Shown piece after piece: positions 26,120-44,348 of a stretch of DNA of 64,000 nt. The translations under genes and the position numbers were made by a program. Origin of the DNA: Roseicyclus marinus (GTDB taxonomy: Bacteria > Pseudomonadota > Alphaproteobacteria > Rhodobacterales > Rhodobacteraceae); contig NZ_JASJOF010000002.1 in assembly GCF_030163795.1 (NCBI RefSeq), positions 124,001-188,000 of the forward strand, given 5' to 3'. Within the stretch, counting starts at the first letter, position 1; every line of letters begins with the position of its first letter. The notes under the pieces are model-generated. The model was not told the DNA's origin, did not search any database, and saw only the letters and a list, made by a program, of their open reading frames with translations.

Positions 26120-26255
26120 ACCTTTCGGTAACGGGTGAGGCCGTTCTGTTAACTCCGTGGCAAGCTTTGGCCTGTCACGGAGCTGTCGCAGCGCCTTAAC
26201 CCGGATGTCGCGGGACCTGCGTAAAACACCCCCAGATGTGGCAGGGGTGATCGGC

Positions 26256-27161
26256 ATGGCGCTGGTGTCCGTGAACGCGACGGAAACGGGATGGACGGAC
26301 CGGCCTCACCTGCTTGCCGTCCTGAAAAACCTGCCCCGTGACGCGCCCGTGGTCATCATGATCCATGGCTACCGCTTCTCGCCTTGGGTCGCGGACGAAG
26401 ACCCTCACCGCCACATCCTGTCGGCCAAGCCCTGCAAGTCGTGCTGGAAAGCCGTCAGCTGGCCACGTCACCTGCGGCTCGACCAAGATGATGGGGCGCT
26501 CGGCATCGGATTTGGCTGGCACGCCCGCGGCCCGCTCCCGCGCGTGGCGCGAAGCGCCTTTCGCATCGGCAAGACGCTGGCCGGTTTGATCCATGAAATC
26601 AACCACCTGCGCGACGATCTGCGGGTTCACATCCTGGCCCATTCGCTGGGCGCGCGGGTGGCGCTGGCCGCGTTGGCCGACGTGCCGCCCGGTGCGCTGC
26701 GCCGGATCATCCTCCTGTCAGGTGCGGAATACGGGGCCAATGCCTGGGCGGCCATGACCAAGGCCGGGGGGAACCACCCCGACATCATCAATGTCACAAG
26801 CGGCGAGAACGCGCTTTTCGACGCGCTGTTTCGGCTCGGGGTGCCCCCGCCAATGCGGGGCGACCGACCAATCTCTGCGGGGTTCGGTGATCTGGCTGGC
26901 TGGACCGACCTGCGCATCGATTGCCGCGCGACCCGGGGTCTGCTGCGGGACGCAGGCTATCCGACCCGCCCGCCCCGGACGCGCATCTGTCATTGGTCGA
27001 CCTATCTGCGGCCAGGCCTGTTCCGGCTGTATCGCGACCTGTGCGATCCCTTGGGCAGCGACCCCCTTCCCCGTCTTGCGGCGCACATGTCCAACCGGCT
27101 CGAACAGCCATCGCGCACCGGCGCGACCGGGGGACGAACCGCCCTCCTTTCCCCCTTGTGA
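26256..27161 (+). CDS. Alpha/beta-hydrolase fold protein
   Basis: A 301-residue hydrolase. The oxyanion segment VVIMIHGYRFSPWV and the nucleophile elbow AHSLGARVAL (variant of GxSxG) are clear; the catalytic acid and final histidine are less certain, with RICHWSTYL near the end a candidate. MALVSVNATETGW at 26256 is preferred as start because CAGGGG stands just before it. Relatives include DUF900-like esterases in alphaproteobacteria; substrate unknown. It lies between gatB and the XpaC-TelA group without obvious link to either. Confidence 0.7.
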   Translation: MALVSVNATETGWTDRPHLLAVLKNLPRDAPVVIMIHGYRFSPWVADEDPHRHILSAKPCKSCWKAVSWPRHLRLDQDDGALGIGFGWHARGPLPRVARSAFRIGKTLAGLIHEINHLRDDLRVHILAHSLGARVALAALADVPPGALRRIILLSGAEYGANAWAAMTKAGGNHPDIINVTSGENALFDALFRLGVPPPMRGDRPISAGFGDLAGWTDLRIDCRATRGLLRDAGYPTRPPRTRICHWSTYLRPGLFRLYRDLCDPLGSDPLPRLAAHMSNRLEQPSRTGATGGRTALLSPL

Positions 27162-27290
27162 CCCGCCGGAACCGGCCCGATCTGCTTAGAACGGGCGGGA
27201 AACCACCACCCGTCGTTGCATTGTCTGGTTTTTCAAGGAAAACCTTTCTAACGTGACGATCACGACCGAAAGACTACCAACGGGGATGGC

Positions 27291-27380
27291 ATGAGTTCGA
27301 GTTTCCTGCAGGGCGTGGCGTTCTTTGCCCTTGTCGTCGTCACCGTGATGGCCAGTTTCGGCGGCTTCGGGGTTCTCTGA
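27291..27380 (+). CDS. 29-aa single-helix membrane peptide ahead of xpaC
   Basis: A tiny reading frame encoding a 29-residue peptide that is almost entirely one hydrophobic helix (FLQGVAFFALVVVTVMASFGGFGVL). An ACGGGGA sequence lies before the ATG, and the stop is one base from the ATG of the XpaC gene, so it is very likely translated as part of that operon. No family known to me. Small hydrophobic peptides at such a position often regulate or anchor membrane complexes; that is inference. Confidence 0.55.
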   Translation: MSSSFLQGVAFFALVVVTVMASFGGFGVL

Positions 27381-27381
27381 C

Positions 27382-28296
27382 ATGTCCAAGCGCTATGGCG
27401 GAGAATTCAGCCCCAGCGGACGGCGCGATGCCAGCGCACCGCGCGAGACGGTGTCCGCCGAACGGCTGGAAGTGCCCAGCTTCAAGGGCCGCAAGCCGAT
27501 GCGGCACGGGGCCAAGCTCAACATCCTGTTCCTGCTGCCGCTGATCGCGGCGGCGGCCGCGCTGTTTCAGCCGGTCGCAGGCCTTGCGGTCGATCTGGCC
27601 GGTGCGGCGGCCCTGATGCTCTCGGCTTGGCTGACGCGCGATGGGGTTCGGGCCGAGGATGCCTTTGACGAACGCACGGTTGCCCGCCGCCCGGCCATCC
27701 CGCGCAAGATCTTCGGCTCGGTCCTCATGGGGGCTGGCGTTGGTCTTCTGGTGTTCGGTGGCCAATGGAACCTTGCCGCCGCGATCATCATGGGCGCGGT
27801 CGCCGGGGGCTTGCATCTGGCGTCCTTCGGGCTCGACCCGTTGGCCGACAAGGGGCTGGAAGGGCTCGACCGCCGCGAGACCGACCGCATCGCGCGCAAG
27901 ATCGAAGAAGCCGAGGCGGTACTGGCGCAGATGACGGATGCGATCAAGCGCGCCCGCGACAGGCAGCTCGAGGCCCGCGTTGAGGCGTTCGAGGATACCG
28001 TGCGCCAGATGTTCCGGCAGGTGGAGGCCGATCCGCGCGACCTGACCGCGGCCCGCCGCTACCTTGGCGTCTACCTTCAGGGCGCACGGGATGCGACGGT
28101 GCAATTCGTCGATCTTTACGCCCGCAACCGCGACCCGCAGGTACGCGCTGATTACGAGGCGTTCCTGACCGACATGGACACCAATTTCGCCAAGCGGACA
28201 ACGGCCATGCTCACCGATGACCGCACGAATTTCGACGTGGAGATCGAGGTCTTGCGGGACCGATTGACCCGCGAAAACCTGCGTATCGAGGGATAA
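27382..28296 (+). CDS. XpaC-family (5-bromo-4-chloroindolyl phosphate hydrolysis) protein
   Basis: A 304-residue protein. A basic N-terminus of about 45 residues precedes two or three membrane helices (KLNILFLLPLIAAAAALF, LAVDLAGAAALML, IFGSVLMGAGVGLLVFG), then a long coiled-coil-like domain (ADKGLEGLDRRETDRIARKIEEAEAVLAQM). This is the XpaC pattern; the name comes from an X-Pal phenotype in Bacillus, and no enzymatic residues are established. XpaC and TelA are a known gene pair. Its position between the 29-aa peptide and telA supports the assignment. Confidence 0.78.
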   Translation: MSKRYGGEFSPSGRRDASAPRETVSAERLEVPSFKGRKPMRHGAKLNILFLLPLIAAAAALFQPVAGLAVDLAGAAALMLSAWLTRDGVRAEDAFDERTVARRPAIPRKIFGSVLMGAGVGLLVFGGQWNLAAAIIMGAVAGGLHLASFGLDPLADKGLEGLDRRETDRIARKIEEAEAVLAQMTDAIKRARDRQLEARVEAFEDTVRQMFRQVEADPRDLTAARRYLGVYLQGARDATVQFVDLYARNRDPQVRADYEAFLTDMDTNFAKRTTAMLTDDRTNFDVEIEVLRDRLTRENLRIEG

Positions 28297-28307
28297 GGAC
28301 CAAAACC

Positions 28308-29516
28308 ATGACCACGAACATCCGCCAACAAGCCGAAGACGCGACAAAGCTCGTCGAGGAAATCAACGCCGTGGTTCTGCTGGAACCTGCCGCCGATCTG
28401 GTGCCCCTGCCCGAGGCCGACGCGCCCACCGCCGAGGAAATCCGCAAGCGCGTGGCCGAGATCGACATGACCGACACGAATTCCATCGTGACCTTCGGCT
28501 CGGCTGCTCAGGCCGAATTGCAGCAGATCAGTCAGGCGATGCTGCAAGGCGTCAAGAACAAGGATGTGGGCCCCGCAGGTGACAGCCTGCGCGAGATCGT
28601 GGGCACGATCCGGGGTTTTTCGGTCGACGAACTGGACCCCAACCGCAAGCGCAGCTGGTGGGAGCGCCTGTTCGGCAAGGCCAAGCCGATCCATAATTTC
28701 ATGGCGCGCTACGAACAGGTGCAGGACCAGATCGACCGGATCACCGAGAACCTCTTGAGCCACGAGCACACGCTGATGAAGGACATCAAGTCGCTCGACA
28801 AACTTTACGAGAAGACGCTCGATTTCTACGACGAGCTGGCCCTCTATATCGCCGCGGGCGAGGAAAAGCTGCGCGAGCTCGATCAGGACACGATCCCCGC
28901 GAAGGAAGCGGAGGTGCAGGCCGCCCCCGAGAACGATCAGGTCATCAAGGCGCAGGAATTGCGCGACCTGCGCGCGGCCCGCGACGATCTGGAACGCCGC
29001 GTCCATGACCTGAAACTGACGCGGCAGGTGACCATGCAGTCGCTGCCCTCGATCCGGCTGGTGCAGGAGAACGACAAAAGCCTTGTCACCAAGATCAACT
29101 CGACCCTCGTGAACACCGTGCCGCTGTGGGAAACCCAGCTCGCGCAGGCGGTCACGATCCAGCGCTCGACCGAAGCCGCCCGCGCGGTGCGCGAGGCCAC
29201 CGACCTGACCAACGAGTTGCTGCAGCAGAATGCGACAAACCTGCGCGAAAGCAACAAGATGGTCCGCGAGGAAATGGAGCGCGGCGTCTTCGACATCGAG
29301 GCTGTCAAGGCCGCCAATGCCGAACTGATCGCCACGATCGAGGACAGTCTCCAGATTGCCGACGAGGGAAAGCGCCGCCGCGCCGCGGCCGAAGTCGAGA
29401 TGCAGCGGATGGAGGCCGAATTGCGCGATACTCTGGCGGCCGCTTCCTCGCGGGCGACGCAAGCTGCATCCGGCGCGACCGGTTCGGGCGCCACCCCGCC
29501 GCCGCCGGCCCGCTGA
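28308..29516 (+). CDS. telA: TelA-family toxic anion resistance protein
   Basis: A 402-residue soluble, largely helical protein. The family core is visible: GDSLREIVGTIRGFSVDEL, RLFGKAKPIHNFMARYEQVQDQI, ITENLLSHEHTLMKDI, KLYEKTLDFYDELALYI, and LTNELLQQNATNLRESNK. TelA/KlaA proteins were named for tellurite resistance but occur broadly in stress and membrane-response loci; the biochemical activity is unknown. A Pro-rich tail (ATPPPPAR-like) ends the protein. It follows xpaC by 11 bases. Confidence 0.93.
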   Translation: MTTNIRQQAEDATKLVEEINAVVLLEPAADLVPLPEADAPTAEEIRKRVAEIDMTDTNSIVTFGSAAQAELQQISQAMLQGVKNKDVGPAGDSLREIVGTIRGFSVDELDPNRKRSWWERLFGKAKPIHNFMARYEQVQDQIDRITENLLSHEHTLMKDIKSLDKLYEKTLDFYDELALYIAAGEEKLRELDQDTIPAKEAEVQAAPENDQVIKAQELRDLRAARDDLERRVHDLKLTRQVTMQSLPSIRLVQENDKSLVTKINSTLVNTVPLWETQLAQAVTIQRSTEAARAVREATDLTNELLQQNATNLRESNKMVREEMERGVFDIEAVKAANAELIATIEDSLQIADEGKRRRAAAEVEMQRMEAELRDTLAAASSRATQAASGATGSGATPPPPAR

Positions 29517-29524
29517 TCGTGCCC

Positions 29525-30460
29525 ATGCCGCTGCGCCTGACCTGTCTGTCCCTTTGCGCGGCGGCCCTTGCCCTGTCTGCCTGCATGCCCAGCATGCAAC
29601 AGGTGAACGTGTCGCCCCGGCCCGAGCAGCGGGCCGAGGCACCCGAACCCTCGCCCGAGAGCCTCGCGCTGGCGCGCTACTACCGCGGCATCGAGGAACG
29701 GCTCACCGCCGACGGGCTATTGCGCACCGACACCGGGCAACGCGACGCGCCCTTCAGCGCGCAGGTTCTGGCCGCGAATTTCGAACGGATCGCGCTTTAC
29801 GACGAATACGTCCTCATGGGCGGGCGTTTCGTGCAGCAGCAAACCCCCGCACGGTTGCGCCGCTGGGAACAACCGGTTCGCATCCAGCCGCATTTCGGGG
29901 CCTTTGTGGATTCGGCCCAACAGGCCGAAGACCGCGCCATCCTTTCGACCTATGCCACGAGGCTTGCGCGGGCCACGGGGCATCCCGTCTCGACCGTGCG
30001 GACCGGGGGCAATTTCCACGTGCTCTACCTTGGTCGTGACGATCTGCGGGACGTGGGTGATCTAGTGCGCAGCCTTGTACCCGGCATCGGAGACGCGGTG
30101 GTAACCGAAATCGAAACCTTGCCGCGCTCGACCTTCTGCTCGGTCTATGCCTTTTCCGAGAGCGGCGGGCGGTCCGTCTATGTCGCGGCCATCGCCATCA
30201 TCCGCGACGAGCATCCCGGTCTCTTGCGGCGCTCCTGTGTCCACGAGGAGGTGGCGCAGGGTCTGGGCCTGCCCAATGACAGCCCCGCGGCACGACCCTC
30301 GATCTTCAACGATGACGAGGAATTCGCGCTTCTGACACGGCACGACGAATTGCTCCTGCGGATGCTCTACGATCCACGCCTCACCCCCGGCCTCCGACCC
30401 GAGGAGGCACGCCCGACCGTGCGCCTGATCGCCGAGGAACTGCTGGGCGGATCAAGTTGA
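29525..30460 (+). CDS. DUF2927 lipoprotein, copy 1
   Basis: A 311-residue protein with a lipoprotein signal (MPLRLTCLSLCAAALALSAC, lipobox LSAC). The DUF2927 domain occupies the C-terminal part and has a metallopeptidase-like segment RRSCVHEEVAQGLGLPNDS followed by SIFNDDEEFALLTRHDELLLRMLYDPRL. HEE-type histidine and glutamates could bind metal, but no proteolysis has been shown to my knowledge. It starts 9 bases after telA, or 3 bases after it if the in-frame GTG at 29519 is used. A longer paralogue is encoded at 41.6-43.0 kb. Confidence 0.82.
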   Translation: MPLRLTCLSLCAAALALSACMPSMQQVNVSPRPEQRAEAPEPSPESLALARYYRGIEERLTADGLLRTDTGQRDAPFSAQVLAANFERIALYDEYVLMGGRFVQQQTPARLRRWEQPVRIQPHFGAFVDSAQQAEDRAILSTYATRLARATGHPVSTVRTGGNFHVLYLGRDDLRDVGDLVRSLVPGIGDAVVTEIETLPRSTFCSVYAFSESGGRSVYVAAIAIIRDEHPGLLRRSCVHEEVAQGLGLPNDSPAARPSIFNDDEEFALLTRHDELLLRMLYDPRLTPGLRPEEARPTVRLIAEELLGGSS

Positions 30461-30584
30461 CCCCTCAGCCTGCGCGCGGTGAAAAATCCATGGAAATTCC
30501 CGCCCCGCATTCCCTGTAGCGACACGGAGCGGCAGCCTATATCATCTTTCGCGACAAACAGACTTTTCGACAGGGGATTGCCAG

Positions 30585-31691
30585 ATGCCGATCATGGATT
30601 TTCTCAGGGGCCAGTTCATCGATGTCATCGAATGGACCGACGACACCCGCGACACGATGGTCTACCGGTTCGAGCGTTACGGCAATGAAATCAAGTACGG
30701 TGCCAAGCTGACCGTGCGCGAGGGGCAGACGGCCGTCTTTGTCCACGAGGGACAACTGGCCGATGTCTTCACCCCGGGTCTCTACATGCTGGAGACCAAC
30801 AACATGCCGATCATGACGAACCTGCAGCATTGGGATCACGGGTTCGCCTCGCCGTTCAAATCCGAGATCTACTTCGTCTCGACCGCGCGGTTCACCGATC
30901 TGAAATGGGGCACCAAGAACCCGATCATGCTGCGCGACCCGGAATTCGGGCCGACGCGCATCCGCGCCTTCGGCACCTATACCGTGCGCGTCGCAGATGC
31001 CGCGCGCTTCATGACCGAGATCGTGGGCACCGACGGAGAATTCACCACCGACGAGATCACCAGCCAGATCCGCAACATCATCGTGCAGCAGTTCAGCCAG
31101 GTCGTGGCGGGATCGGGCATCCCGGTGCTCGACATGGCGGCCAATACCGGTGACTTCGGCAAGATCGTGGCGGACCGGATCTCGGCCACGTTGACGGACT
31201 ACGGTCTGACCCTGCCCGAGCTTTACATCGAGAATATCTCGCTGCCCCCCGCGGTCGAAGAGGCGCTGGACAAGCGGACTTCGATGGGCGTGGTCGGAGA
31301 TCTCAACAAATACACGCAGTTTCAGACCGCCGAAGCGATGCGCGCGGCCGCCGAAAACCCCGGCGGCGGTGGCATGGGCGAGGGTCTCGGGATGGGGATG
31401 GGCATGGCCATGGCGCAGGGCCTGACACAGGCGATGGGCGGCGGCCGGGCTGCGGCACCCGCCGCCCCGCCGCCCCCGCCCGTCGAACATGTCTGGCACA
31501 TCGCCGAGAATGGCCAGACGCGGGGCCCGTTCTCGCGCGCCGATCTGGGGCGCATGGCCAGCGCAGGCGAATTGACCCGGCAGACCCATGTCTGGACGCA
31601 AGGGCAGGATGGCTGGAAGCGCGCCGAGGAGGTGACGGAGCTTGCCCAGCTTTTCACCGTGATGCCGCCGCCGCCCCCGCCGGGCGTGTGA
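30585..31691 (+). CDS. SPFH-domain protein with C-terminal GYF-like domain
   Basis: A 368-residue protein. Residues about 1-255 form an SPFH (band-7) domain: KYGAKLTVREGQTAVFVHEG, GTYTVRVADAARFM, and a helical ending. A glycine/methionine-rich linker (GGGMGEGLGMGMGMAMAQ) and an Ala/Pro stretch lead to a GYF_2-like domain (VWHIAENGQTRGPFSRADL ... VWTQGQDGWKRA). There is no N-terminal membrane helix, so it is probably peripheral. Such SPFH proteins are commonly encoded next to zinc-ribbon membrane proteins and TelA; together they are thought to respond to membrane or envelope stress. AGGGGA precedes the ATG. Confidence 0.88.
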   Translation: MPIMDFLRGQFIDVIEWTDDTRDTMVYRFERYGNEIKYGAKLTVREGQTAVFVHEGQLADVFTPGLYMLETNNMPIMTNLQHWDHGFASPFKSEIYFVSTARFTDLKWGTKNPIMLRDPEFGPTRIRAFGTYTVRVADAARFMTEIVGTDGEFTTDEITSQIRNIIVQQFSQVVAGSGIPVLDMAANTGDFGKIVADRISATLTDYGLTLPELYIENISLPPAVEEALDKRTSMGVVGDLNKYTQFQTAEAMRAAAENPGGGGMGEGLGMGMGMAMAQGLTQAMGGGRAAAPAAPPPPPVEHVWHIAENGQTRGPFSRADLGRMASAGELTRQTHVWTQGQDGWKRAEEVTELAQLFTVMPPPPPPGV

Positions 31692-31706
31692 GACCCGACG
31701 CATGAC

Positions 31707-31732
31707 GGTCGGCCCGCGGATGCGGGCCGTCC
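31707..31732 (+). terminator. Strong hairpin between the SPFH and zinc-ribbon genes
   Basis: An 8-base perfect stem CGGCCCGC/GCGGGCCG with a 4-base loop, extended by two more pairs after a T-T mismatch. With no T-run and the same-direction gene 52 bases on, it may tune expression inside the operon rather than end it. Confidence 0.5.
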
Positions 31733-31783
31733 CCGCCCGCGCCCCATCCGGGGCCAAAGCCCATTCGCGACGCGAAAGCCAAG

Positions 31784-32938
31784 ATGTCCGACAGTTTCGA
31801 CAGCACCAAAGAAGCGGCCCGCCCCGAGGATGAACACCGCTTTCCCTGTCCGCAATGCGGCTCGGATCTCCGCTTTGCTCCAACCGAGGGAAAGCTGGTC
31901 TGCGACCATTGCGGGCATGAGGAACCGATCGAGGATGACCGCGCGGCAGGCCCTTGGGGCGGGGAGGCCCCCGCGCTCGTCGAACTGGATTACGAGACCG
32001 CAATCGCCGCCCAACTCCCCGCGCAGGAGATGGAGGAAACCCGCGTCAGCCAATGCCCGTCTTGCGGCGCACAGGTCAGTTTCGAAGGGGCGACCCATTC
32101 CGCCGAATGCCCGTTTTGCGCAACACCCGTCGTGGCCGACACCGGCACCCATCGCCATATCAAGCCCAAGGGCGTCCTGCCCTTCAAACTGACCGAGAAG
32201 CAGGCTCATGACGCGATGAACGGCTGGCTGGGGCGGCTGTGGTTCGCGCCGAACGGCCTGCAGGACTACGCCAAGAAGGGCCGCAAGATGGACGGCATCT
32301 ATGTCCCCTACTGGACCTATGATGCCGATACGGCCACCAATTATCAGGGCCAGCGGGGCGACGCCTATTACGTCACCGTGCGCGGGCCCGATGGCAAGTC
32401 CCGACAGGAACGCCGCGTCCGCTGGAGCCGCCGCTCGGGCCGCGTGGCGCGGTTCTTCGACGATATCCTGATCCTCGCCTCGCGATCGCTGCCCAAACGC
32501 TTCACCGACCGGCTTGCGCCGTGGGACCTGCGGGACCTTGACGCATATCGGCCGGAATTCCTGTCCGGTTTCCGGGCCGAGGGCTATCAGGTCGAGCTTG
32601 CCGAAGGTTTCGAGGAAGCCAAGCAGGTGATGGAGGCACAGATCCGGCAAGACATCCGCCGCGACATCGGCGGCGATGAACAGCGCATCGACCACATGCA
32701 GATCCGCATCGACGACGTGACCTTCAAGCATGTCCTGCTGCCGGTCTGGCTGGCCGCCTACAAGTATCGTGGGCAGACCTACCGCTTCGTCGTGAACGGA
32801 CAGACCGGCAAGGTGCAGGGCGAACGCCCATGGTCGTGGATCAAGATCGCGATCGCCGTGATCTTGGCGGCAATCGTGATCGGGGCGGGCCTTTATGTTT
32901 ATGGAATGGTCGAGGGTGGCGGAACGGCCCTCAAATAG
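31784..32938 (+). CDS. Double zinc-ribbon membrane protein
   Basis: A 384-residue protein. Two zinc ribbons lie at the front: CPQC ... CDHC (residues about 22-46) and CPSC ... CPFC (about 88-112). A middle domain with PYWTYDADTATNYQGQRGDAYYV and a VWLAAYKYRGQTYRFVVNGQTGKVQG segment follows, then one C-terminal membrane helix (IKIAIAVILAAIVIGAGLYVYG). Databases often label such proteins as primosomal or TFIIB-like by the zinc ribbon alone; nothing here indicates DNA replication. It is the last gene of the XpaC-TelA-SPFH group. Confidence 0.8.
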   Translation: MSDSFDSTKEAARPEDEHRFPCPQCGSDLRFAPTEGKLVCDHCGHEEPIEDDRAAGPWGGEAPALVELDYETAIAAQLPAQEMEETRVSQCPSCGAQVSFEGATHSAECPFCATPVVADTGTHRHIKPKGVLPFKLTEKQAHDAMNGWLGRLWFAPNGLQDYAKKGRKMDGIYVPYWTYDADTATNYQGQRGDAYYVTVRGPDGKSRQERRVRWSRRSGRVARFFDDILILASRSLPKRFTDRLAPWDLRDLDAYRPEFLSGFRAEGYQVELAEGFEEAKQVMEAQIRQDIRRDIGGDEQRIDHMQIRIDDVTFKHVLLPVWLAAYKYRGQTYRFVVNGQTGKVQGERPWSWIKIAIAVILAAIVIGAGLYVYGMVEGGGTALK

Positions 32939-40234: not shown

Positions 40235-40507
40235 GTCGCTCCCCTCAGCGGAGCCGGCGTGGTCTTGTCGGTCTGGCATGACACCCTCCCGGCCCCTCGC
40301 CGCCCGATTACTAGACGACGCGCGGCTTGTCGACACTCTATTGCGTGACCCCGATCAATCCCGCCGGACGACGGCTTGCGTTTCCTTATGAGGCAGGTTT
40401 TTTGCCTTATGCCCGCTGTTTGGGCGTTTTTCCGGCGGAGCCGGAGCCGGCCCTTTCCCCGCAGGGCCCAAGCCGCTACGACTGATCCAAGCAAGGAGAG
40501 CACCGCC

Positions 40508-41353
40508 ATGACCACCCGCTTCGAAGGCAGCGACAGCTATGTGGCGACCGAGGATCTGACCGTTGCGGTCAATGCCGCGGTCACGCTGGAACGTCCGCTT
40601 TTGGTCAAGGGCGAACCGGGCACAGGCAAAACCGAATTGGCCCGGCAGGTCGCGGCCTCGCTCGGGCTTCCGATCCTCGAGTGGCACATCAAATCCACCA
40701 CCCGTGCCCAGCAGGGCCTTTATGAATACGATGCGGTCAGCCGTTTGCGCGACAGCCAGCTGGGGGATGAGCGGGTCAACGACGTGCGCAACTACATCCG
40801 CAAGGGCAAGCTGTGGCAAGCCTTTGAACAGGAGGGGAAATGCGTCCTCCTGATCGACGAGATCGACAAGGCGGACATCGAATTTCCCAACGATCTTTTG
40901 CAAGAATTGGACCGGATGGAGTTCTTCGTCTACGAGACCGGAGAAACGATCCGCGCCCGGACGCGACCCATCGTCATCATCACGTCCAACAACGAAAAGG
41001 AACTGCCCGACGCGTTCCTCAGGCGCTGTTTCTTTCACTACATCCGCTTTCCCGACATGGAGGTGATGAAGCAGATCGTCGAGGTGCATTTCCCGGGCAT
41101 CAAGGCGCAGCTTCTGACCACGGCGCTTACGCAATTCTACGAGATTCGCGAGCAGCAGGGGCTCAAGAAAAAGCCCTCCACCTCCGAGGTGCTGGATTGG
41201 CTGAAGCTGCTTCTGGCTGAAGATCTGTCGCCCGAGGATCTGCGCCGTGACGGCGCCTCGGCGCTGCCCAAGCTGCATGGCGCGCTGTTGAAGAACGAAC
41301 AAGACGTGGCCCTGTTCGAGCGCCTCGCCTTTCTGGCACGGCGGCAAAGGTAA
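40508..41353 (+). CDS. MoxR-family AAA ATPase
   Basis: A 281-residue AAA+ ATPase. Walker A GEPGTGKTE, Walker B CVLLIDEIDK, sensor 1 IVIITSNNEKELPDAFLRRC and sensor 2 in the C-terminal helical part are present. MoxR ATPases act as chaperones for metal centres or complexes, usually with a VWA-domain partner. The CoxE-like VWA gene lies 1.8 kb downstream on the same strand, separated by a DUF2927 lipoprotein and a small membrane protein. AAGGAGA precedes the ATG. Confidence 0.93.
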   Translation: MTTRFEGSDSYVATEDLTVAVNAAVTLERPLLVKGEPGTGKTELARQVAASLGLPILEWHIKSTTRAQQGLYEYDAVSRLRDSQLGDERVNDVRNYIRKGKLWQAFEQEGKCVLLIDEIDKADIEFPNDLLQELDRMEFFVYETGETIRARTRPIVIITSNNEKELPDAFLRRCFFHYIRFPDMEVMKQIVEVHFPGIKAQLLTTALTQFYEIREQQGLKKKPSTSEVLDWLKLLLAEDLSPEDLRRDGASALPKLHGALLKNEQDVALFERLAFLARRQR

Positions 41354-41578: not shown

Positions 41579-42958
41579 ATGAAAGCCGTGCGTCACCTGG
41601 GCCTCGCGACAACCTCGGCGCTCGTCTTGTCGGGCTGCGTGGCCTCGACCATGCCCGTCGGAGAGATGCCCGAGCGCCGGATGCCGCCCGCCATCGCGCA
41701 GGCCGTGCCGACGATGAGCCAGTTCGGCGCGGCGCAACCGAGCCCCACCACAAGGTCAAATTCCCAGATCGCGGCCGATTTCATGGAGCTGTCGTTCCAG
41801 ATGGAATCGGGACGCCGGATCGAGCGGCTGTCGCGGTTCGAGGGACCGATCACCATCGCCGTCGCGCCGGGCGCGCCCGCCACGCTGTCGCCGGACCTCG
41901 ACCGGTTGATCGACCGCCTGCGGACCGAGGCGCGCATCGACATCCGCCGTGTCGCCCATGGGCAGGAGGCGAACATCACCATCGAGACCCTGCCGCGCGC
42001 CCGGATGCAGCGCATCGTGCCCGAGGCCGCCTGTTTCGTGGTGCCGCGCGTCACGTCATGGGCAGAATTCCGGCGCGCGCGCAATTCGCGTGACATGGAC
42101 TGGACCACGCTCGACAGCCGCGAGCGTGTCGCCGTCTTCTTGCCCAACGATGTCGCGCCGCAAGAGGTGCGCGATTGCCTGCATGAAGAGGTGGCGCAGG
42201 CGCTGGGGCCGCTCAACGACCTGTATCGCCTGCCCGATTCCATCTTTAACGACGACAATTTCCATGCCGTCCTGACCGGTTTCGACATGCTGATCCTGCG
42301 CGCCTATTACGATCCGGCGCTTCGGTCGGGGATGACGCGGGCCGAGGTCGCCGCGGCCTTGCCCGGTATCCTTGCCCGGATCAATCCGCGCGGACAGACG
42401 ATCGGCGGCGGCGGCGCGACCACGCCGACACCGCGCGCGTGGATCGAGGCGATCGAGACCGCGCTGGGGCCGGGGACGCGCGACGGGCTGCGCGTCGCGG
42501 CCGCCGAGCGCGCGGTGTCCATCGCCGTTCAAGAGGGGCTGACGGATGCGCGGCTGGCCTTCAGTTATTTCGCGCTTGGCCGGTTGGCGCTCGGGACCGA
42601 TGTGGAACGCTCGGTGAGCGCCTTTCTGGCGGCCTCCGACATCTACGACGGGATCGCGCCGGGCGGCATTCATTCGGCCCATATCGACATGCAGCTTGCC
42701 GCCTTTGCGCTGAGTTCAGGCCGCGCGGACGAGGCGCTGCGCCTGTCGGGACGTGCGATGCCCGCCGCGACGCAGGCGCAGAATGCATCGCTTCTGTCCA
42801 CGCTCCTGATGATCCGGGCCGAGGCGCTGGACGCGCTTGGCCGGGCGTCGGAGGCGCGTCAGGTGCGGCTCGACAGCCTCGCCTGGGGTCGCTATGGGTT
42901 CGGCAATTCCGCGGCGGTAGGCGCGCGCCTCACAGAGGTCGCTGCGCTTGCGCCGTGA
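41579..42958 (+). CDS. DUF2927 lipoprotein with helical repeats, copy 2
   Basis: A 459-residue paralogue of the lipoprotein at 29.5 kb. The signal peptide MKAVRHLGLATTSALVLSGC ends in a lipobox (LSGC). The DUF2927 domain includes RDCLHEEVAQALGPLNDLYRLPDS and SIFNDDNFHAVLTGFDMLILRAYYDPAL, parallel to copy 1. A second part from about 285 onward is helical and TPR-like, with repeated ALGRLALGTDVERSVSAFLAAS-type stretches. It lies between MoxR and VWA genes, while copy 1 lies in the TelA module. Confidence 0.8.
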   Translation: MKAVRHLGLATTSALVLSGCVASTMPVGEMPERRMPPAIAQAVPTMSQFGAAQPSPTTRSNSQIAADFMELSFQMESGRRIERLSRFEGPITIAVAPGAPATLSPDLDRLIDRLRTEARIDIRRVAHGQEANITIETLPRARMQRIVPEAACFVVPRVTSWAEFRRARNSRDMDWTTLDSRERVAVFLPNDVAPQEVRDCLHEEVAQALGPLNDLYRLPDSIFNDDNFHAVLTGFDMLILRAYYDPALRSGMTRAEVAAALPGILARINPRGQTIGGGGATTPTPRAWIEAIETALGPGTRDGLRVAAAERAVSIAVQEGLTDARLAFSYFALGRLALGTDVERSVSAFLAASDIYDGIAPGGIHSAHIDMQLAAFALSSGRADEALRLSGRAMPAATQAQNASLLSTLLMIRAEALDALGRASEARQVRLDSLAWGRYGFGNSAAVGARLTEVAALAP

Positions 42959-43147: not shown

Positions 43148-43163
43148 CATCTTGTCGGGCAAG

Positions 43164-44348
43164 ATGTTCCTGCCCTTTTTCGAAACACTCCGCGCCGCGC
43201 GCATTCCCGTCAGCCTCAGGGAATACCTCGCCTTCCTTGAGGGCGTGTCGCGCGGGCTTGTGACCTATGACGTGGACGGGTTCTACTATCTTGCCCGCAC
43301 CGCCATGGTGAAGGACGAGCGCCATCTCGACCGGTTCGACCAGTGTTTCGCCCATACCTTCGGCGGGTTGGAGCAGATCACGCCCGAACAGGTGCTGGAG
43401 GCCGCCGACATCCCGCGCGAATGGCTGGAGAAACTGGCCGAAAAGCACCTGACGCCCGAGGAACGCGAAGAGATCAAGGCGCTTGGCGGGTTCGACAAGC
43501 TGATGGAGACGCTGCGCGAGCGGTTGCGCGAGCAGCAAGGCCGCCACCAAGGTGGCAGCAAGTGGATCGGCACGGCGGGCACATCCCCCTTTGGCGCCTA
43601 TGGCTACAATCCCGAGGGCGTAAGGATCGGCCAGGTTGAGTCCCGCCACCGACGCGCGGTCAAGGTTTGGGATAAGCGGGATTTCAAGGATTTCGCGGGC
43701 GACGTGGAATTGGGCACGCGCAACATCAAGGTGGCGCTGAAACGGCTGCGGCAATGGGCGCGGGACGGCGCGGCCGAGGAGCTGGATCTGGATGGCACGA
43801 TCCGCGCCACCGCCGAACAGGGCTGGCTCGACGTGAAAACGCGGCCGGAACGGCGCAACGCGGTCAAGGTTTTGCTGTTTCTCGACGTGGGCGGGTCGAT
43901 GGACGATCACATCAAGGTGGTGGAGGAATTGTTTTCCGCCGCGCGCGCCGAGTTCAAACACCTCGAACATTATTATTTCCACAATTGCCTGTATGAAAAC
44001 GTCTGGCGCGACAACCGCAGGCGATGGACCGAGCAGATCCCGACCCATGAGGTGATGAACACCTACGGGTCTGATTACAAATGTATCTTTGTGGGCGATG
44101 CCGCCATGTCGCCCTATGAGATTGCCTCTGCGGGCGGGGCCAACGAACATTGGAACGAGGAGGCCGGACAAGTCTGGCTGGAGCGCGCGCGCACCCAATG
44201 GCCCGACCATCTGTGGATCAACCCGACACCCGAGAAGCTGTGGGGCTATACGCAATCCATCGGCATGATCCGCGAGATTTTCGAGGGGCGGATGGTGCCC
44301 ATGACGCTCGAGGGTCTGGATCGGGGCATGCGGGATCTGGGACGGTGA
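43164..44348 (+). CDS. CoxE-like VWA-domain protein
   Basis: A 394-residue protein. The N-terminal helical region carries the family start FLPFFETLRAARIPVSLREYL; the VWA domain with the metal site LLFLDVGGSMDDH starts near residue 235. The usual DxSxS of MIDAS is D-V-G-G-S here, so one of the coordinating serines is Gly. VWA proteins of this type partner with MoxR ATPases. ATG at 43164 is chosen because family members begin at MFLPFF; a TTG 12 bases upstream is the alternative. Confidence 0.9.
   Translation: MFLPFFETLRAARIPVSLREYLAFLEGVSRGLVTYDVDGFYYLARTAMVKDERHLDRFDQCFAHTFGGLEQITPEQVLEAADIPREWLEKLAEKHLTPEEREEIKALGGFDKLMETLRERLREQQGRHQGGSKWIGTAGTSPFGAYGYNPEGVRIGQVESRHRRAVKVWDKRDFKDFAGDVELGTRNIKVALKRLRQWARDGAAEELDLDGTIRATAEQGWLDVKTRPERRNAVKVLLFLDVGGSMDDHIKVVEELFSAARAEFKHLEHYYFHNCLYENVWRDNRRRWTEQIPTHEVMNTYGSDYKCIFVGDAAMSPYEIASAGGANEHWNEEAGQVWLERARTQWPDHLWINPTPEKLWGYTQSIGMIREIFEGRMVPMTLEGLDRGMRDLGR

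Follow-up and report, generated by a model that had tools for sequence, protein, structure and literature searches.

Positions 27291 to 32938 of a 64,000-nucleotide stretch of Roseicyclus marinus DNA (the window; NCBI RefSeq assembly GCF_030163795.1, contig NZ_JASJOF010000002.1, positions 124,001 to 188,000) hold six genes that form a near-universal module in the sampled part of their family, the Rhodobacteraceae, and for which we found no assigned function. From a computational analysis, we put at roughly 0.5 the probability that the core of this module is a near-universally kept system for maintaining the inner membrane, to which an envelope lipoprotein of the DUF2927 family has been added. 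All six genes proposed by the first-pass annotation of this stretch are present, and their families are identified by Pfam matches, hydropathy and CxxC motifs:

27291-27380, + strand: hydrophobic microprotein of 29 amino acids (aa); open reading frame (ORF) without a Pfam or NCBIfam match
27382-28296, + strand: XpaC membrane protein (PF10112; Pfam E 9e-27, 94.7 bits)
28308-29516, + strand: TelA, soluble, with long helices (PF05816; Pfam E 9e-111, 370.5 bits)
29519-30460, + strand: DUF2927 lipoprotein (PF11150; Pfam E 3e-60, 204 bits; lipobox LSAC)
30585-31691, + strand: SPFH protein (PF13421) with a C-terminal GYF_2 domain (PF14237) (E 2e-102; 341.7 and 76.1 bits)
31784-32938, + strand: zinc-ribbon protein with a C-terminal membrane anchor (four CxxC; zinc-ribbon Pfam models, one over the cut-off)

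This mixture of genes had been described as unusual, and it proves instead to be family-wide. In a sample of 121 genomes from 59 genera of the family, TelA was matched in 119, DUF2927 in 120 and PF10112 in 118; PF13421 was likewise matched in 118, 117 of them over the cut-off. Full-length TelA, XpaC and SPFH occur together in 117 genomes. Three genomes (G011, G085 and G106) have none of these three at full length, and the co-occurrence gives a Fisher p of 1.4e-5, uncorrected for relatedness. G085 carries a divergent TelA (L078, 4917-5822; E 8e-12) and has no match to PF10112, PF13421 or PF11150.

Gene order is conserved as well. Linkage in relatives was set beforehand as the check on the module, and in 60 neighbourhoods, one per genus plus G106, the order XpaC-TelA-DUF2927-SPFH is found in 52, with the zinc-ribbon gene next in 47. 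XpaC directly adjoins TelA, PF10112 before PF05816 on one strand, in 56 of the 60 and in the window. Among the best 80 of 583 named loci, which were ranked by a DUF2927 query and are thus biased towards having this gene, the four genes are in order in 77 and joined by the zinc-ribbon gene in 63; the closest named relative by DUF2927 among these 80 is Roseicyclus mahoneyensis, at 77%. The genus-representative and named sets overlap, their 136 TelA proteins amounting to 131 distinct ones, with five groups of identical proteins, of which four span both sets. Gaps in the window are 1 nucleotide (nt) between the peptide and XpaC, 11 nt between XpaC and TelA, 2 nt between TelA and DUF2927, 124 nt between DUF2927 and SPFH and 92 nt between SPFH and the zinc-ribbon gene; the medians over homologues for the last four are 21, 26, 36 and 69 nt. 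The recurrent neighbours of the module look, from their sequences, like housekeeping genes.

We extended the comparison to a class-wide sample of 142 genomes, 2 from the same family and 140 others. Among the 140, TelA occurs in 11, full-length PF13421 (>240 bits) in 5 and DUF2927 in 15. Five of these outside genomes have both TelA and full-length SPFH: in four (L171-L174) XpaC, TelA, SPFH and zinc ribbon are contiguous without an intervening DUF2927, and in the fifth, G132, the TelA and SPFH genes lie apart. A profile of the small peptide finds no match in L171-L174. Each pair also exists alone, as xpaC-yaaN on a B. subtilis plasmid record and as SPFH-zinc ribbon on a Vibrio plasmid. The lone pairs, together with the four-gene loci outside the family, indicate that the core is a union of two pairs. 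An older four-gene core appears to have gained DUF2927 and the small peptide in this family.

The predicted topologies of the core proteins suggest how they could work together. XpaC has hydrophobic segments at residues 48-66, 110-128 and 131-149 by hydropathy, and most of its homologues have at least two. The zinc-ribbon protein has a single C-terminal hydrophobic segment (residues 355-373); 112 of 115 homologues have one segment of this kind, and the same number have four CxxC motifs within the first 150 residues. The SPFH protein has no hydrophobic segment, nor does any of its 134 homologues. The combination of soluble SPFH and TelA with membrane-embedded XpaC and zinc-ribbon protein fits recruitment of a scaffold by integral partners. 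In B. subtilis, the SPFH protein YdjI is soluble, needs the membrane partners YdjG and YdjH and recruits PspA, according to the part of PMC8581546 that describes this system. In Listeria, the XpaC-TelA operon is upregulated after exposure to the bacteriocin garvicin KS, and a telA mutant was reported to be sensitive to nisin and tellurite (in the relevant section of PMC12791056, which cites Collins 2010 for the mutant). That TelA carries a tellurite label is not enough to imply tellurite resistance here.

We therefore favour an arrangement in which XpaC, with its membrane peptide of 27-29 aa, and the tail-anchored zinc-ribbon protein would reside in the inner membrane. Where patches of it are stressed or too fluid, they would recruit two soluble proteins, the helical TelA and a scaffold of SPFH-GYF, in a way similar to that in which YdjG/H bring YdjI and PspA to the membrane in B. 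subtilis. We infer that the recruited assembly would stabilise the membrane against permeabilising agents, and that DUF2927, a lipoprotein outside the cytoplasm, would serve the envelope independently of the core. The first-pass suggestion of a membrane-stress system thus stays plausible, given the linkage in relatives and the action of the best-studied relatives at the membrane; its extension to phage defence is unsupported.

Several observations weigh against an inner-membrane maintenance unit built in this way. G081 keeps TelA and XpaC and lacks SPFH alone. In Roseicyclus-type loci L038, L094, L098, L099, L100 and L104, and likewise in L049, L117 and L138, the zinc-ribbon gene was not found within the several kb covered downstream (several other misses of this gene are contig ends). 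Six genomes sampled from a single genus have XpaC and the peptide at a distance from TelA, so that adjacency is not required. In the open-access literature searched, no experiments on the module appeared among the matches listed; no paper there mentions DUF2927 or joins 'toxic anion resistance', SPFH and zinc ribbon. TelA relatives are also frequent on plasmids (594 of 72,556 records, of which 549 are predicted to be conjugative), and TelA is thus not solely a housekeeping protein.

The structural prediction for TelA adds a further point on that side. Its model has a mean pLDDT of 70 and shows two helices, one at residues 127-205 and one at residues 208-320, with the final part of the latter below pLDDT 50. 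Foldseek returned nothing at E<=0.001, and the 50 rows listed include alpha-pore toxins, designed bundles, axoneme proteins, BAR domains and ALIX/HD-PTP domains; by sequence, no relative among solved structures was found at E<=0.1. (The SPFH protein has two weak matches among solved structures by sequence.) With so weak a model and no match, a PspA-like role for TelA, or one as a structural stand-in for PspA/ESCRT-III, lacks structural support. The PspA family itself (PF04012) is present in 40 of the 121 genomes (39 over the cut-off), is absent from the R. marinus genome and, by position, lies within about 20 kb of TelA in none of the 121. This patchy distribution argues that the module is independent of PspA. 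We rejected the module as a substitute for PspA, because the 40 genomes with PspA, set against the near-universal module, show no clear pattern of replacement.

The mobility of TelA relatives is what could speak for an anti-phage or anti-toxin defence system, an explanation we hold to be very improbable. Besides the plasmids, 68 of 50,697 phage records carry TelA relatives, and a jumbo Sinorhizobium phage encodes flotillin, XpaC and TelA. The module is nevertheless near-universal in the family and sits in a conserved, housekeeping-like setting. None of the five main proteins has a PADLOC match below E 0.001 (the peptide was outside the scan), and PADLOC models match just one of the eight genes examined nearby, an AAA ATPase at 40505 (nine models, best E 1.5e-9). 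Phage defence as a function of the module was rejected on these grounds. The phage locus belongs to Sinorhizobium phage Phosso (469 kb; L203, 2497-6044), where flotillin, XpaC (PF10112, 81 bits) and TelA (40% identical) are consecutive, so that the phage carries a counterpart of part of the module.

DUF2927 is separable from the core. In L156 and L157 (one lineage, 95% identical) and in L086, DUF2927 is kept and the flanking peptide-XpaC-TelA and SPFH-zinc ribbon genes were not found; for L156 and L157 the core genes were sought at the locus only. L086 belongs to G106, from which TelA, XpaC and SPFH are missing genome-wide, while its congener G099 carries the complete set. The L086 copy sits between what appear to be an RluB-like and an Hsp20-like gene, before pfkB. 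G011 (L041) similarly keeps DUF2927 and lacks TelA, XpaC and full-length SPFH in its genome. The opposite is seen in L039 and L048, where the core is present and DUF2927 is missing from the locus; these genomes have other DUF2927 copies, so the gene may have moved. In L088, DUF2927 lies 11 kb from TelA. Two or three lineages have thus lost the core and kept DUF2927, and two loci show the reverse. This distinguishes the module genes that behave as one unit from those that do not, and hence indicates which ones to delete together.

The first-pass annotation had placed a tiny membrane peptide at the front of the module. The 29-aa ORF is a real gene, more than chance would give. A rule-based search found a hydrophobic ORF of about 27-29 aa ending near the XpaC start in 125 of 133 loci, compared with controls upstream of TelA (0/135), DUF2927 (0/136), SPFH (1/134), the zinc-ribbon gene (7/115) and pfkB (20/69), the last of these probably reflecting the C-terminal membrane helix of the zinc-ribbon protein located there. 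A stricter rule retained 49 of 56 genus-representative and 72 of 77 named loci. Among the 123 ORFs that could be anchored, the stop codon lies between -8 and +5 nt from the XpaC start, with a one-base overlap in 62, and glycine is third from the C terminus in 110. The pooled dN/dS over 208 pairs, which are not independent, is 0.213 in frame versus 1.35 and 3.12 in the shifted frames.

The peptide appears to follow XpaC rather than the front of the operon. In genus g7, XpaC sits away from TelA, and the peptide profile matches beside the moved XpaC in all six genomes (L204-L209) and has no match in the g7 TelA loci L037, L210 and L211. Nor does it match in the L041, L086, L156 and L157 stretches, where XpaC was not found either. 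Some loci speak against such a pairing: the ORF was missed in 8 of 133 loci by the first rule and 12 of 133 by the stricter one; of the missed loci tried with the profile, L076 yielded the peptide and L088, in which XpaC is present, did not; and extra XpaC copies gave no match (L212 and L214) or E 0.45 only (L213). On balance, sequence comparison ties the microprotein to the main XpaC gene, of which it is probably a partner and a new family. The peptide is thus not a general front piece of the operon. As a conserved microprotein paired with XpaC and without a match in the searched family libraries, it can now be tested.

The DUF2927 protein begins with GTG at 29519 (an alternative ATG lies at 29525), and 112 of 136 homologues have a lipobox by rule. 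An AlphaFold2 model built from 64 sequences has a mean pLDDT of 90.4. Matrix metalloproteinase (MMP) catalytic domains rank first in Foldseek, with only two rows at E<=0.001, and the sequence has no relative of note among solved structures. Structural alignment with VIA-align gave Z 11.7 and a root-mean-square deviation of 2.9 over 151 residues for MMP-7, and all 50 entries listed are MMPs or karilysin (Z 10.5-11.7). The lipoprotein is confidently predicted to have the metzincin fold.

The HEE motif that was noted earlier as metallopeptidase-like departs from the normal motif of such enzymes. The conserved stretch reads C-V-H-E-E-V-A-Q-G-L-G-L-P-N-D, and the alignment register places E243 and Q247 at the first two zinc histidines, N253 or D254 at the third and E244 at the catalytic glutamate. 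H242 of HEE is not part of this register, and some members (L104) have another residue in its place. Every one of the 132 distinct module proteins keeps E243, E244, Q247 and D254 (129 by pattern, 3 by eye) and lacks the zinc motif HExxHxxGxxH/D. In the R. marinus protein the site reads EExxQxxGLxND (more generally EExxQxxGxxND). We compared 16 of the 19 class-wide DUF2927 matches outside the family, leaving out three short ones. Eight have EExxQ (L181, L184-L188, L195 and L196), and six distant members have the canonical motif: L190 (HEMGHVMGLRFH), L191 (HELAHGFGFAH), L192 (HEMMHALGFRGH), L193 (HELMHALGFPGH), L197 (HELMHVLGLSGH) and L199 (HELLHAVGFFNH). L190 and L192 were assigned by motif only, with profile E 0.02 and 0.27 and PF11150 E 6e-13 and 1.5e-12; L189 and L194 have neither motif by pattern.

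EExxQ is also present in both other DUF2927 copies of the R. marinus genome (window 41579-42958; L198). Its occurrence in all module proteins, eight outside members and the paralogues argues that the exchange is widespread and maintained: in this protease-shaped family, the zinc site has been replaced and has since stayed invariant. The paralogue in the window (+ strand, 459 aa, HEEVAQALGPLND) has a C-terminal extension that is weakly TPR-like, below the cut-off, and is flanked by the AAA ATPase (40505-41353) and a VWA/CoxE-like gene (43152-44348). The third copy is on contig C23 (EELVQAMGLPTD).

The earlier view of the lipoprotein as a peptidase-like part of the module thus stands for its predicted shape and fails for its zinc histidines and its evolutionary attachment to the core. 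DUF2927 probably acts by binding and not by cleavage, or else employs a different metal. A bolder combination seems to us quite doubtful: the EExxQxxGxxND branch of DUF2927 would consist of metzincins in which hard oxygen and amide ligands have turned the zinc site into a conserved site for a metal other than zinc, such as Mn or Ca, that TerC helps to load, and the peptide would be a regulatory subunit specific to XpaC. If true, the rebuilt site would define a new class of envelope metalloprotein.

Metal handling through TerC is the main rival to membrane maintenance, and we consider it unlikely. Here TerC would export Mn, the locus would load or protect extracytoplasmic metalloproteins, and DUF2927 would be a client with an oxygen-ligand metal site. 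In 29 of about 130 loci, TerC (PF03741) precedes XpaC on the same strand at a distance of 110-304 nt; in L041, L156 and L157, where XpaC and TelA were not found, it is directly upstream of DUF2927. In B. subtilis, TerC proteins load exported enzymes with metal and, in co-immunoprecipitation, come down together with translocon proteins and FloT, as set out in the portion of PMC10550928 dealing with them. The EExxQxxGxxND site would offer oxygen or amide ligands only. However, TerC adjoins the module neither in this window nor in most loci, the tellurite link concerns TelA relatives only, and the metal site is putative.

The same locus brings together an SPFH scaffold, a zinc-ribbon membrane protein and a protease-fold lipoprotein, as might be expected if it served membrane-protein quality control, with the SPFH assembly organising a protease or translocon and DUF2927 providing the periplasmic substrate-binding side in a layout like that of HflK/C-FtsH. 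This we find rather improbable: DUF2927 has no zinc histidines, and its presence or absence is independent of SPFH.

Upstream of the microprotein we identified one further feature:

27225-27252, + strand: promoter-like element CTGG[CT]-N19-[TC]A[TA][ACT] before the small ORF, found in 51 of 133 related upstream regions

Shuffled sequences gave a mean of 1.8 and a maximum of 6 over 50 shuffles, which keep base content only, and the loci are related; the element is promoter-like and makes a candidate promoter. Patterns for EcfG, RpoE, RpoH, CtrA, LexA-like and sigma-70 sites upstream occur at about the shuffled level, and a Gibbs motif search produced nothing convincing. Terminators inside the module are not in excess (3, against a shuffled mean of 4.8), and the hairpin between the SPFH and zinc-ribbon genes is unremarkable (z -1.6).

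Some loci carry additional genes. An insert of about 0.8-0.9 kb separates XpaC from TelA in L050, L131, L135 and L151; a cluster of four loci encodes there an additional protein, some 233 aa long, whose N-terminal part has a hydrophobic stretch. In a number of loci, a long gap between SPFH and zinc ribbon contains a small membrane protein (28 clustered ORFs; tblastn match in 17 loci). Examples are the proteins of L067 (8887-9420; cytochrome b561, PF01292, 41.5 bits) and L062 (8201-8623; no Pfam family at E 0.01). Directly upstream of the module, the window has an alpha/beta-hydrolase-like gene (26190-27161; Pfam DUF900, Abhydrolase_1 and Tle3, all sub-threshold), found in the same place in many close relatives.

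The XpaC-linked microprotein, the identification of DUF2927 as a metzincin with an exchanged site and its separation from the core are new. Among known systems, the point of contact with Ter/TerC is TerC beside XpaC in 29 loci; in the window, TerC does not adjoin the module. Matrixins and other metzincins (MMP-7, karilysin) resemble DUF2927 in predicted fold and in the glutamate kept at the catalytic position, whereas DUF2927 is a lipoprotein with the zinc histidines changed to E, Q and N/D and with 8-14% identity in the rows listed. The SPFH-zinc ribbon pair of the Vibrio plasmid is close to that of the module (SPFH 46% identical over 96% of the query; zinc-ribbon relative next, E 2e-107) but has no XpaC or TelA within the 13 kb viewed. 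The XpaC-TelA pairs of B. subtilis (xpaC-yaaN) and Listeria (lmo1966-lmo1967) have the same two families in the same order. Within a 9-kb stretch, the B. subtilis pair is not accompanied by genes for SPFH, zinc ribbon or DUF2927 and gives no peptide match, whereas the Rhodobacteraceae pair is joined to SPFH-zinc ribbon. The SPFH protein of the module is, as in the Psp system, of the PF13421 type without its own membrane anchor, and we assume the B. subtilis PF13421 match to be YdjI; the zinc-ribbon protein may resemble its partners YdjG and YdjH. For the Listeria pair, links with nisin, tellurite and the bacteriocin response are described in the section of PMC12791056 concerned with it. In B. 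subtilis pspA-ydjGHI, as in the module, a soluble SPFH protein is encoded with membrane proteins, and there these place PspA at the membrane (PMC8581546, in its account of that operon). The module differs in having no PspA and in bringing TelA, XpaC, the peptide and DUF2927 as extras of its own.

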